Assembly (NCBI RefSeq): GCF_001955715.1 | Contig: NZ_CP019239.1 | Location: 2,604,001-2,668,000 of the forward strand | DNA from: Rhodoferax saidenbachensis | Lineage (GTDB): Bacteria > Pseudomonadota > Gammaproteobacteria > Burkholderiales > Burkholderiaceae_C | Length of the DNA stretch: 64,000 nt | Direction: 5' to 3' | The notes under the pieces: generated by a model | The model's database searches: none | Told to the model about the DNA's origin: nothing | Seen by the model: the letters and a program-made list of their open reading frames with translations, nothing else | In this document: piece after piece, positions 30,020 to 55,914 of the stretch | How the letters are laid out: every line of letters begins with the position of its first letter | How positions within the stretch are numbered: the first letter of the stretch is position 1 | Made by a program: the position numbers and the translations under genes

Positions 30020-30082
30020 GATCAATGTTTGATATGAGAGGCGGCGCAGCCCTTGCGCCGCCTCTCGATGGACGGGTTAGGC
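30020..30082 (-). other. attC-like site 1 (end of cassette array)
   Basis: Read on the minus strand, it starts with the R'' core GCCTAAC (30076-30082) overlapping the stop of the cassette 1 gene. It has a perfect 13-bp stem (GAGAGGCGGCGCA 30036-30048 with 30054-30066). The R' core is degenerate (about 30021-30027), as expected for the last site of an array. Confidence 0.75.
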
Positions 30083-30553
30083 GCTGGGTTTGAAGCGCGC
30101 ATTTTTTGGTATTCCGACGTTTGGCTGTAATAGCTTGGTCATGTAATCGGGATCGTGATAACAATCCCAGTATTCGAGACCGTGAAAGGCGCGGAGAGTA
30201 ACTCGAATGGCTCCCGCCCCAACGATCTTCGCTCCTACCCACTTCTTAGAACGGAACTGCTCATACCGGCGAACGTTGTCAGGAACATGAATCGTTGCAT
30301 TGCCTTGTACCGTCCATTGTCGGGACTTGAGCAGCTCTGTCGTGACTAGTGAAACGATGGTGGGCGGTTTGCTAGTCTGGTGTTCTGCGCTTTGCTCAAT
30401 GCAAGGCCAGAACGCACACCCATAGCTTGCCATTGAGCCCTGCTCGATCGAAAGAATCTGACCCAAACCTAAAGGATCATCAACTTTTGGGGCATACGGA
30501 TCTCCCAGCGGAATCGCAAAGTAGTCGCCAGCAGTGAATGGTTTGCGTGGCAT
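30077..30553 (-). CDS. Cassette 1: Imm26-like hypothetical protein
   Basis: A 158-residue soluble protein. Its start, FTAGDYFAIPLGDPYAPK, resembles Imm26-type immunity proteins, which begin with a GDxFxIPL motif; the rest (YWDCYHDPDYM, RYEQFRSKKWVG) I do not recognise. It fills an integron cassette bounded by attC sites 1 and 2 and reads on the minus strand like the other cassettes. Its base composition is closer to AT than neighbouring core genes. If Imm26-like, it would protect against a contact toxin (inference, weak). Confidence 0.65.
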   Translation of the reverse strand: MPRKPFTAGDYFAIPLGDPYAPKVDDPLGLGQILSIEQGSMASYGCAFWPCIEQSAEHQTSKPPTIVSLVTTELLKSRQWTVQGNATIHVPDNVRRYEQFRSKKWVGAKIVGAGAIRVTLRAFHGLEYWDCYHDPDYMTKLLQPNVGIPKNARFKPSA

Positions 30554-30558
30554 GAGGC

Positions 30559-30627
30559 GTCTAACATTTAAGCTGAGCCGCGAGTGGCGGCCTGCCGACG
30601 CGAGTTGGCTCGGGCGACAGGCTAGGC
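30559..30627 (-). other. attC-like site 2
   Basis: 69 bp. The minus-strand R'' is GCCTAGC (30621-30627), one base from consensus, and R' is GTTAGAC (30559-30565), fitting GTTRRRY. Between them are inverted arms around GCCGCGAGTGGCGGC. Confidence 0.75.
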
Positions 30628-30649
30628 CGCAGAGTTCTCGATGACACCC

Positions 30650-31060
30650 TCATTTCGGAACCTTGGCCGGCGCGGCGCGACCTGCTTTGACCCATAGGGC
30701 ACCGAATGCGGAGAGAACCAAAACCCCTGCGGCCAATCGCAGATAGTCCCCAAGCTCTATCGCGCTACCTCGAAACAGCTCCATCACCACAAAGGCAAGC
30801 CCATGAGCCCATATGCAGAACCCAACCATGAAGTAGGTGGCCCATTTCGCGGCCTTAGTTCTGTACCTGACGTAGTAGGTGAGCGTACCTGCCGCAAGCA
30901 GGGCCCCAATTGCAAAAATAGCCTGATCCGGCTGTACTCCGTGACCGGAGAGTAGCGGTTCGACCACAGATGAAAAGACCAGGACCAAACCAACAGCTAC
31001 CGCGGCTCCTGCCAGCAACCATGCCATAGCCTGGTCAAGCAGTCGAAGTACAGGATGCAT
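30650..31060 (-). CDS. Cassette 2: four-helix membrane protein, unknown
   Basis: A 136-residue protein with four predicted membrane helices (AMAWLLAGAAVAVGLVLVFS, AIFAIGALLAAGTLTYYV, YFMVGFCIWAHGLAFVVM, LRLAAGVLVLSAFGALWV) and a basic, Pro/Ala-rich tail. No family is recognised. It is the only gene of its cassette, between attC sites 2 and 3. Small inner-membrane proteins are common among chromosomal integron cassettes. Confidence 0.65.
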   Translation of the reverse strand: MHPVLRLLDQAMAWLLAGAAVAVGLVLVFSSVVEPLLSGHGVQPDQAIFAIGALLAAGTLTYYVRYRTKAAKWATYFMVGFCIWAHGLAFVVMELFRGSAIELGDYLRLAAGVLVLSAFGALWVKAGRAAPAKVPK

Positions 31061-31067
31061 TTCTGCG

Positions 31068-31154
31068 GCCTAACGTAAAAATGACCGGGCTACCAACACT
31101 TGCGGCGGAGCCGCCTCCTGCTGTTGTGGGTCCGTGTCGATTGACACGTTAGAG
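31068..31154 (-). other. attC-like site 3
   Basis: 87 bp. The minus-strand R'' is CTCTAAC (31148-31154) and R' is GTTAGGC (31068-31074, perfect GTTRRRY). It shares the block CTGCTGTTGTG with site 4 in the same relative position, showing that the two sites are related. Confidence 0.8.
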
Positions 31155-31179
31155 GGCGAGTGTGAGGCCACGAAACCTC

Positions 31180-31443
31180 CTAGGTGTTTAGACGAGGGAA
31201 CCATACGCCTTTGAAGTTCGGCGGACCCATATTCGGAATTACGTGATTCTGGTCGAGGTCGCGAACGTCCACATCTTCGAGCACTTCAATCGGCTCAAAC
31301 GACCAGCCGGATTGCGAGCATGCGTTACGAGCGAGAGTCTCCGCCTCCAATCGGGAACCGGCTGTAACGCCAATACCGAGTCCGCGAGCAAGCACAAACC
31401 AAAACCGGCGCAAAGAAGGATCTTTGAGGAGCACCATGTTCAT
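31180..31443 (-). CDS. Cassette 3: 87-residue hypothetical protein
   Basis: An 87-residue soluble protein (MNMVLLKDPSLRRFWFVLARGLGIGV at the start, abridged here to show the basic and aromatic patch; acidic second half EVLEDVDVRDLDQN). No known family. It is the sole gene between attC sites 3 and 4. The start is 9 bp from the R' core of site 4, the usual layout for a cassette gene. Confidence 0.55.
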   Translation of the reverse strand: MNMVLLKDPSLRRFWFVLARGLGIGVTAGSRLEAETLARNACSQSGWSFEPIEVLEDVDVRDLDQNHVIPNMGPPNFKGVWFPRLNT

Positions 31444-31451
31444 TCGACGCC

Positions 31452-31539
31452 GTCTAACGTCAAAGCGTGCCCGGCACGCAGCAAACGCCGCGCAGCGGCA
31501 TTCTGCTGTTGTGTGTCCGTGCCGAGCAAAATGTTATGT
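31452..31539 (-). other. attC-like site 4
   Basis: 88 bp. The minus-strand R'' is ACATAAC (31533-31539) and R' is GTTAGAC (31452-31458). The R'' is the exact complement of the core GTTATGT found at the 5' end of the same cassette (31867-31873), as expected if the cassette once closed as a circle. Confidence 0.85.
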
Positions 31540-31851
31540 GTCACTGACGGTCTCCATGGTTGCCGCCAAAAATGTGACACTTGGATCTTGTTCGAAGTTT
31601 CTTACTTCAATTCGTGCAGAGTCCCAATGGCGATCGGAGATGTCCACTATCTCCATTCCTGACAAGGAACCATTAAAACCTTCGTCGATTCGCAGATTGG
31701 ACACACCTGAAAAGCGCAGGTGCCGCTTTCTTCCTTGGCCTTGGGCAATCAGCTCAATGTAGCTGTCTTTCCAAGACTGCCAGTCGATGTGGTAGTGAAA
31801 ATCAACGAGGTCCATATTGCTAAAGCCTGCAAGGAGAACAGTGTCATTCAT
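31534..31851 (-). CDS. Cassette 4: 105-residue hypothetical protein
   Basis: A 105-residue soluble, acidic protein (VDFHYHIDWQSWKDSYIELI in the first half, VSNLRIDEGFNGSLSGMEIVDIS in the middle). The pattern of short strands and tryptophans resembles small immunity-type proteins, but no family is recognised. It starts 16 bp after the core site at 31867-31873 and its stop overlaps the R'' of attC site 4, so the gene fills the cassette exactly. Confidence 0.6.
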   Translation of the reverse strand: MNDTVLLAGFSNMDLVDFHYHIDWQSWKDSYIELIAQGQGRKRHLRFSGVSNLRIDEGFNGSLSGMEIVDISDRHWDSARIEVRNFEQDPSVTFLAATMETVSDT

Positions 31852-31866
31852 TCATTTCCCCGTGAC

Positions 31867-31873
31867 ACATAAC
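31867..31873 (-). other. Integron core site at the 5' end of cassette 4
   Basis: GTTATGT on the minus strand, one base from GTTRRRY. It could be the remains of an upstream attC or of attI. The DNA from 31874 to 32082 has lower GC and shows no integrase and no convincing gene; a 76-codon frame at 31848-32078 runs through it. Confidence 0.6.
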
Positions 31874-32082
31874 GTAATTTAGATCGCAAACCACTGCGAA
31901 ATAACATGGCGAATCTGCCGATAAAACCCACACAAACCCTTACCGGCATTGCATTCCTCGCTATACCTAAAGTAGCAACAAACCTCGCAATTGCCGAAGC
32001 TCGTCTGTCCTCTATATCTCCACCCATTGTCCACGGCCCAACCAAGCCTGGATATCCCCCATTCGGGTGAATCTTCAACCGT

Positions 32083-50394: not shown

Positions 50395-50503
50395 TTTGTC
50401 GGTGGGCTGACTTGGCTGTGGTCAGTTCGTCACTCACGTCAACTTTGGATTTGACCGGCACACCAAAGTGCCTGCACGTCTGTGTCGAACAACCTGTCAG
50501 CTG

Positions 50504-50773
50504 TCATTTCTTACCTCTTCCGGTCCAGAGCGGAATGCCAAGCAGCGCCAACAGCGGCCAGAAGAGGGCTCCAAGGATCTCAAATGGATTGGCCTCGCCA
50601 GCCGCCTCTTCAAACTGGAGTTGCTTGACGCCAGGCAACTCAGGATGCAATTGCCGCGCACGATCGATGTCTGACACCCTCGGAGTTGCCGAACACTCGC
50701 ATAGAACGCATTGACTCCCCGAGGGTTTGTTCGGGCTCCCACAAGCAAGACAGCGCCAGACGTAACTCGGCAT
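50504..50773 (-). CDS. Small zinc-ribbon membrane protein
   Basis: An 89-residue protein from the ATG at 50773, with a zinc ribbon (CLACGSPNKPSGSQCVLCEC, two CxxC knuckles) and a C-terminal hydrophobic helix (ILGALFWPLLALLGIPLW) followed by a basic tail. The domain order resembles small zinc-ribbon-plus-anchor proteins of unknown function. The DNA around it has lower GC and a GTTAGCC-like core just before the start, so it may be a lone integron cassette (weak). Confidence 0.6.
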   Translation of the reverse strand: MPSYVWRCLACGSPNKPSGSQCVLCECSATPRVSDIDRARQLHPELPGVKQLQFEEAAGEANPFEILGALFWPLLALLGIPLWTGRGKK

Positions 50774-50891
50774 GATGGCTAACTTTGTATGGGCCGCAGA
50801 AACGCGGAATAACGTGGCCAAATATTCATTGTTGAGGCGTCCCTAGATTTAAGTCTTGGTTATATATCAGTCTGAAATCCTGTGCGGAGAG

Positions 50892-55126: not shown

Positions 55127-55914
55127 GCGTGCACCTCTTCGCCTTCGGCGTGGCCCAGGTACACCACCTTGACCTGCGGGTCATTGGCGATCTGCTCCGG
55201 GTCGCCTTCGGTGAGCACCGTGCCGTTGACCAGCACCGTCATGCGTTTGGCAAAGCTGAAAACCAGATCCATGTCGTGTTCAATCAAAAGAATGGAGACG
55301 TCCGAAGGCAAGGCGGCCACGGTTTGCAGCAGCTCTTCGCGTTCACCGGCGGGCACACCGGCTACGGGTTCGTCGAGCAACAGCACGCGCGGTTCGCAGG
55401 CCAGCGCAATCGCAATCTCCAGCAAACGGCGTTTGCCGTAGGCCAGCACACGGGTTTCCTGCGCCATGACTTCGGTCAGGTGGAATTGCTCCAGCAACTG
55501 CTCGCAACGCTCGGTCACGTTTTTGTTGCCGCCCAATGCCTTCCACCACTGGCCGCCCAGGCCGCGGTGCTGGCTGACCACCATGGCCAGGGTTTCCAGC
55601 GGCGTAAGGGTGTCAAACAGCTGGTTGATCTGGAAGGTGCGCACCATGCCGCGGCGCACACGTTGGTGCGGGGCCAGGTTGGTGATGTCCTGGCCTTCGA
55701 GGATGATCTTGCCTTCGGTGGGCTGCAGCACGCCGGTGAGCAAATTGATCAGCGTGGTTTTGCCCGCGCCATTGGGGCCGATCAGCGCATGGCGTGCGCC
55801 CTGGTGCAGGTTCAGCGTGACGTTGTTGGTGGCGGTGATGCCACCAAACTTCATCACCAGGCCCTGCGCGCTCAGCACGGTAGAAGTGGAAGGTTTTGTC
55901 ATGGAAGTGCTCAT
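55123..55914 (-). CDS. livG: Branched-chain-type ABC transporter ATPase
   Basis: A 263-residue ABC ATPase: Walker A LIGPNGAGKTTLINLLTG, the LivG-type signature VLAYGKRRLLEIAIALACEP, Walker B LLLDEPVAGVPAGE and the long LivG N-terminal insert FQINQLFDTLTPLETLAMVVSQ. The second ATPase of the heterodimer with LivF. Starts inside the livM stop (4-bp overlap). Confidence 0.95.
   Translation of the reverse strand: MSTSMTKPSTSTVLSAQGLVMKFGGITATNNVTLNLHQGARHALIGPNGAGKTTLINLLTGVLQPTEGKIILEGQDITNLAPHQRVRRGMVRTFQINQLFDTLTPLETLAMVVSQHRGLGGQWWKALGGNKNVTERCEQLLEQFHLTEVMAQETRVLAYGKRRLLEIAIALACEPRVLLLDEPVAGVPAGEREELLQTVAALPSDVSILLIEHDMDLVFSFAKRMTVLVNGTVLTEGDPEQIANDPQVKVVYLGHAEGEEVHA

Follow-up and report, generated by a model that had tools for sequence, protein, structure and literature searches.

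A row of integron cassettes in a chromosome that has no integron integrase raises the question of how the cassettes came to lie there. The DNA analyzed here, referred to as the window, comprises 64,000 nucleotides, i.e., bases 2,604,001-2,668,000 of a single-contig 4.26-Mb genome of Rhodoferax (in the GTDB sense). An earlier note on this DNA described an array of four cassettes and classified it as a CALIN. In our opinion, the window probably holds two satellite integron platforms, each made of an orphan attI and one to four cassettes, which were loaded in trans and have no intI.

The cassette array and its attC sites

The array lies on the minus strand, runs from 31872 to about 30020, and consists of four one-gene cassettes. 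Judging by appearance, we take its neighbors to be a substrate-binding-protein gene and a succinate-semialdehyde-dehydrogenase-like gene. As the earlier note had it, the four genes (31851-31534, 31443-31180, 31060-30650, and 30553-30077, all on the minus strand) share one orientation, and each stands alone between core sites. The accompanying claim that the stop codons touch R″ holds for genes 1 and 4, whose TAA lies within R″, but not for genes 2 and 3, which end 25 and 22 bp before it.

Cassette 1 (31458-31872, minus strand) is delimited by core sites, and its two ends form a perfect 12-nt inverted repeat (pair I16), as would be expected if the unit had moved in circular form; its gene encodes 105 amino acids, for which no family was found. 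In cassettes 2 (31074-31457), 3 (30565-31073, with core sites placed by eye), and 4 (30020-30564), all on the minus strand, 6 of 7 core bases match by eye. The protein of cassette 2 (87 aa) has 134 relatives at E ≤ 0.001, and none of the 120 listed carries a Pfam domain; that of cassette 3 (136 aa) is presumably a membrane protein, judged by appearance; and that of cassette 4 (158 aa) retrieves 14 proteins at E ≤ 0.001, including the window's own copy. Pfam searches with the four proteins returned two matches, both under cut-off. For five cassette proteins, PADLOC returned none and NCBIfam a single match, under cut-off. An empty counterpart of the array locus was not found among relatives, which match gabD and not the other flank.

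The attC sites were assessed with two models, R1, made from 27 attC sites, all of other genomes, and the broader R3, made from 85 sites, none of this genome; E-values of the attC and attI models are rough. Two of the four core-paired sites that had been proposed are beyond doubt, namely attC 1 (31452-31539, minus strand; R1 83.5 bits, E 6e-21) and attC 2 (31068-31154, minus strand; R1 80.9 bits, E 3e-20). The remaining pair is degenerate, and it is chiefly their position that speaks for these sites: attC 3 (30559-30627, minus strand) has 11.9 bits and E 0.21 with R1, and 19.3 bits and E 0.002 with R3, while attC 4 (30020-30082, minus strand) is not listed by R1 at E ≤ 10 and has 17.2 bits and E 0.008 with R3. 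The R′ box of attC 4 (30082-30020) is poor, reading ATTGATC instead of GTTRRRY. A plus-strand match at 55167-55244 (19.0 bits, E 0.003 with R3), probably unrelated or due to chance, gauges the noise of R3; since it scores like attC 3 and attC 4, these two sites are weak. The outcome that the earlier note had named as telling against it, that no attC model would match, did not occur with R1 and R3.

In a fold check, the DNA z-scores of the minus and plus strands were -3.7 and -2.0 for 31452-31539, -2.1 and -2.3 for 31068-31154, -0.7 and -1.0 for 30559-30627, and -6.2 and -6.4 for 30020-30082. A search of the window with Rfam gave nothing at gathering scores. The block common to sites 31068-31154 and 31452-31539, which had already been noticed, is CTGCTGTTGTG and belongs to a genus-wide attC family. 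Over the whole genome, R1 finds ten attC sites at E ≤ 1.1e-4 in eight loci, at 284, 519, 822, 876, 957, 1289, 2636, and 2654 kb, the last two of which are in the window.

The stated absence of an integron integrase extends well beyond the window: TIGR02249 has no match over cut-off in the window or in the whole single-contig genome. Of two loci that it matches weakly, one is XerD (over the cut-off of the XerD model), and the other is best matched by XerC (323 bits, cut-off 335). A CALIN is now defined operationally by at least two attC sites with no integrase nearby (IntegronFinder 2.0; PMC9024848). With two attC sites at E ≤ 3e-20, two weak ones, and no integrase over cut-off in the genome, the label is supported. 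It leaves out part of the picture: cassette 1 has an attI-like site and a promoter-like region in front of it, and the genome has seven attC loci besides this array. Of the parts of a complete integron, the intI gene is missing and attI is in place before the first cassette. According to PMC9024848, IntegronFinder does not detect attI outside class 1, so that a run of this program would miss an orphan attI.

Orphan attI sites and the promoter-like module

The attI sites were sought with model R2, made from nine attI sites that adjoin intact intI in other Rhodoferax genomes; the 5-bp inverted repeat of this model shows covariation. Its best match in the window is an orphan attI at 31867-31928 (minus strand; E 7e-4 in the window, 0.048 in the whole genome), with the crossover between G31873 and T31872. 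The sequence that leads into cassette 1 is found again in front of the cassettes at 957 and 1289 kb and in genome G216, and sites built like this attI adjoin IntI genes of other genomes of the genus. An attempt to read the attI-like block as the right half of an attC was rejected, because the same type of block adjoins intact intI in other genomes. The second-ranking match of R2 in the window is another orphan attI, at 50777-50835 (minus strand; E 0.043 in the window, 2.9 in the genome; E 1.6e-4 by BLAST against an intI-adjacent attI region), and the third has E 4.3. Behind the second attI lie a single cassette gene (50504-50773, minus strand; ORF of 89 aa) and its attC (50437-50502, minus strand; R1 30.5 bits, E 1.7e-6; R3 E 9e-8); this satellite is unrelated to the first.

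Over the whole genome, R2 has nine matches at E ≤ 10, at 284 kb (E 1e-6), 3476 kb (5e-5), 823 kb (1e-4), 957 kb (0.009), 1289 kb (0.04), 2636 kb (0.048), 1837 kb (0.18), 2654 kb (2.9), and 1178 kb (3.2); the last scores like that at 2654 kb. BLAST against intI-adjacent regions, with the database size set to the genome, gives E-values of 1e-18 at 519 kb, 2e-10 at 822 kb, 6e-10 at 3476 kb, 2e-9 at 284 kb, 7e-9 at 1836 kb, and 1.6e-4 at 2654 kb. It gives no support at 957 kb (E 1.0), 1289 kb (E 0.29), 2636, 876, and 2868 kb. Thus, R2 matches at E ≤ 0.05 stand in front of five attC loci (284, 823, 957, 1289, and 2636 kb), and the attI of 957, 1289, and 2636 kb rests on R2 (E 0.009-0.05 in the genome) together with mutual resemblance. 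The attI sites at 2654 and 519 kb, the latter absent from the R2 matches, are supported by BLAST to the intI-adjacent region. By these sequence comparisons, a putative attI is supported in front of seven of the eight attC loci and is weak at 876 kb.

Three further candidates were left uncounted: 876 kb, which has only E 1.6e-4, to another orphan module; 2784 kb, where a 21-base pattern matches with 2 mismatches and for which a reversed control gives 2 matches at ≤3; and 2868 kb, where the attI end was seen by eye. Genes lie directly behind the attI at 3476582 (L184) and behind the attI-like pattern match at 2783904 (L131) of this genome; by appearance only, we take their products to be nucleotide-binding or SIR2-type defence proteins.

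Cassettes could also have been inserted at chromosomal attG sites, the resemblance to attI being due to chance or acquired later. That cassettes can enter at attG is well established (Loot et al. 2024, cited in PMC12901181), and the window attI reaches only E 0.048 genome-wide. However, a model made from intI-adjacent attI ranks cassette-front sites first in 4.26 Mb, and promoter-attI modules of about 235-345 bp are common to several loci. Moreover, an attI-like site is present at the upstream junction, where attG insertion calls for none. We consider this explanation most improbable.

Upstream of the first orphan attI, the window has an operator-like motif, TTCACCCGAATGGGGGATA (32053-32071, minus strand), which is 19 bp long and partly palindromic and has 30 copies in the genome at ≤3 mismatches (control 0). 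It is followed, 40 bases past its start, by a -10-like hexamer, GACAAT (32026-32031, minus strand), recognized from aligned motif contexts, the two together forming a putative promoter. Next comes the block TGCGAGGTTTGTTGCTACTTT (31969-31989, minus strand), which lines up by eye with other modules and with loci that carry intI and is probably a remnant of the intI start. Five of the 30 motif copies, at 957, 2636, 284, 823, and 3476 kb, lie upstream of an R2-supported attI on the same strand; a sixth precedes the attI remnant at 2868 kb, and a more diverged copy is found at 1289 kb. The motif is also upstream of attI in G216.

Among 41 motif contexts, collected with a looser pattern and with palindromic sites read in both directions, position +41 is A in 28, position +43 is A in 23, and position +45 is T in 25. 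In 15 of these contexts, the best -10 match begins at +40, and in 16 it lies inside the motif itself. A motif with 30 copies and, in a sizeable share of its contexts, a -10-like signal at constant spacing possibly marks an unnamed regulon. The module may act as a promoter.

The module family and its home locus

IntI over cut-off is encoded in 21 of 103 genomes of the genus, and R2 matches at E ≤ 0.05 (under stricter filters) were found in 55 of the 103, with up to six sites each. At E ≤ 1e-3, there are 47 R2-positive genomes, 31 of which have no IntI over cut-off by a hand count that includes many drafts and some genomes with IntI fragments. Among the R2-positive genomes of ≤3 contigs, six of eight (this genome, G211, G213, G227, G150, and G237) are without IntI over cut-off.

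A set of 41 orphan sites from 13 genomes, from which sites known to adjoin intact intI were excluded, was fetched. R1 finds attC within 2 kb of 26 of them and none within 2 kb of the other 15 (rows of at least 17.1 bits, which corresponds to an E of about 0.05, were counted; three weaker rows and one duplicate view were excluded), and the motif pattern lies within 400 bp of seven. An N-terminal IntI fragment is present at three sites and an intact intI at none. About 235-345 bp upstream of attI are common to orphan sites at other places and in other species, and a few of the pairs are orthologous loci. By eye, many of 42 upstream regions have in common a promoter region with the motif, a block aligning to the intI start of complete integrons but lacking the start codon, and attI. 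G211 carries a pair of modules, separated by 2.4 Mb, that are alike except for 2 of 239 bases (99.2% identity) and both end at the crossover; their flanks and cassettes are different.

Sequences like the module also occur outside the genus. DNA of the 284-kb module matches 24 of 250 genomes of the family, in 16 of 141 genera, mostly in the part from the intI start to attI. IntI over cut-off is present in five of the 11 other-genus genomes checked, and, among the six without it, G130, G345, and G141 have broken or partial genes and G287 a fragment. The conjugative plasmid 1 of Polaromonas sp. JS666 (NC_007949.1) carries an attI-like site at 320012-320056 (E 9e-7) and, elsewhere, an attC at 99055-99120 (67 bits); no integrase was found among the annotated genes in the 10-12 kb around either.

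Several other features of these loci should be mentioned. In G156, the attI of the intact integron differs in build from most of the orphan attI sites of the same genome. In G225, two orphan attI sites lie about 1 kb apart in opposite orientation (L261). Several arrays (L037, 12870-12975; L165; L166; and others) have, behind their last attC, a repeat whose inverted arms read AACGACTGCTT / AAGCAGTCGTT, and an arm of this repeat precedes several modules; a role as a transposon end was considered. A 1.5-kb block that is 99.7% identical between two G156 loci was rejected as a case of shared cassettes, as it covers a 361-aa transposase-like gene, presumably of IS110 type by its appearance. The two copies of this IS110-like element lie within satellite arrays of G156 (L231 and L232). 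Insertion sequences that target attC are known.

The genus appears to have one home locus. An intact intI lies beside an ahpF-like gene in 10 or more of the 21 genomes with IntI over cut-off, as counted among the loci retrieved. The 1289-kb array of the present genome adjoins the same gene without intI, so that 1289 kb represents the home locus and the arrays of the window are satellites. IntI fragments are kept at this locus in G219 and G125.

This gradation, from an intact intI in 10 genomes to fragments in two and to none here, documents loss of intI in place, and it would also be expected if each array were simply the remnant of a complete integron that lost its intI where it stood, with no loading in trans. 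CALINs have indeed been proposed to be degraded integrons (PMC9024848), and L228, L237, and L245 retain N-terminal IntI fragments beside attI. Against such plain decay, 38 of the 41 orphan sites have no IntI-coding remnant, and the two G211 loci have different cassettes behind nearly identical modules. Moreover, modules at unrelated loci are alike, by eye, through the same scar at the intI start, and hence the deletion preceded the spread. Plain decay is, in our view, unlikely, though it deserves consideration.

Further evidence comes from an orphan locus that is orthologous in G213 and G179. Its left flank, module, and attI (1336 bp, 93.9% identity) and its right flank (1677 bp, 90.2%) are shared, the latter starting within about 16 bp of the crossover, whereas the DNA between module and right flank (443 and 1407 bp) gives no BLAST match between the two genomes at 1e-4. 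In G216 and G225, different cassettes are found with that right flank. No IntI over cut-off was found in G211, G213, G216, and G225; a fragment of IntI persists in G213, and the G179 assembly is a draft. In addition, a satellite cassette of G211 has a counterpart (553 bp, 88%) in the array at the locus of G222 that carries intI. The replacement of cassettes at orthologous orphan loci indicates that exchange took place at attI sites with no local integrase; it may have happened in trans in these species or, predating the loss of intI, in an IntI-positive ancestor. The module family thus shows two features expected of the proposed non-autonomous integrons, the same intI-less head at unrelated loci and cassettes exchanged at an orphan attI without a local intI.

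As to the spread of the module, it may have moved as a cassette-like circle, with attI replacing attC, or inside a transposable element. Cassettes of attI type do recombine with IntI1 in the laboratory (PMC12901181), TTAACGACTGCTT stands at the crossover where several arrays end, and several modules have matching inverted arms in front of them. On the other hand, the shared stretch of the G211 pair begins at CTGCTTTG and not at a G^TT crossover; an empty site and a target duplication were looked for and not found; and many arrays, that of the window included, are without arms. We regard this route as quite improbable. It concerns the spread of the module and is compatible with the satellite explanation.

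The satellite explanation, which we favor, would run as follows. The module at 32.07-31.87 kb, with its operator-like promoter, probable intI-start remnant, and attI, would go back to an integron head from which intI was lost and would be one of a family scattered over the chromosomes of the genus. Cassettes would have been joined to its attI by site-specific recombination, with an IntI from elsewhere acting in trans; most simply, this enzyme would have come from the ancestral chromosomal integron beside the ahpF-like gene, whose intI has presumably since been lost in this lineage. Lying directly downstream of the module promoter, the cassettes may be expressed from it. IntI is known to join attC to attI (PMC8618304), and a functional IntI can mobilise CALINs in trans (PMC12444791). 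Catalysis in trans at the orphan attI and the route by which the module spread are inferred.

Relation to known systems and significance

CALINs as described in PMC9024848 and PMC8618304 likewise have attC-bounded cassettes with no intI nearby. These accounts present them as the result of degradation, displacement, or off-target insertion and do not score attI outside class 1, whereas here a conserved attI and a promoter-like module occur at unrelated loci. The integrons of Xanthomonas (PMC12444791) offer a close parallel, in that they have one ancestral locus (at ilvD, as compared with the ahpF-like gene here) and have often lost intI. CALINs away from that locus occur in about half of the genomes, and mobilisation in trans is stated as possible; the account of these CALINs describes no attI, whereas in the present case attI modules are the dispersed unit. 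Treponema phagedenis (PMC3607928) also has an attC array in a syntenic place, left after loss of intI, but at one locus, which is described as static. In the delta-attI-type cassettes of mobile integrons (PMC12901181), attI lies away from intI and is still recombined; there, attI replaces attC at the cassette end, whereas here it heads an array at a locus of its own. Insertions at attG (Loot et al. 2024) similarly place cassettes away from the integron, but no attI-like module is expected upstream of them. In open-licence papers (preprints not included), a search for orphan, dispersed, or multiple attI and for integrase-less or non-autonomous integrons returned nothing that describes such satellites.

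The genus offers a ready test set, with near-complete genomes with and without IntI and several attI types beside intact integrases, and its one home locus allows the loss of intI to be followed. A more general view, which we put forward tentatively and hold to be possible rather than probable, is that in Rhodoferax and its relatives non-autonomous promoter-attI heads that lack an integrase have spread via chromosomes and plasmids and are loaded in trans by IntI enzymes of other integrons, with their cassettes placed under an operator common to about 30 host sites and thereby in a host regulon.

CALINs are regarded as debris or as cassettes that lack a platform, despite numbers close to those of complete integrons (2961 as compared with 2760 in a large survey; PMC9024848). 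Since the usual software ignores attI outside class 1, orphan attI sites would be overlooked. An array that has a docking site and a promoter-like region of its own but no integrase, and that is one of several of this kind in the genome, suggests that stray clusters of cassettes can serve as platforms filled from elsewhere and need not be mere leftovers. If an attI and a promoter of their own are common among CALINs, these arrays may be expressed and open to reloading, and the capture capacity of a genome would be set by several attI sites rather than by one.
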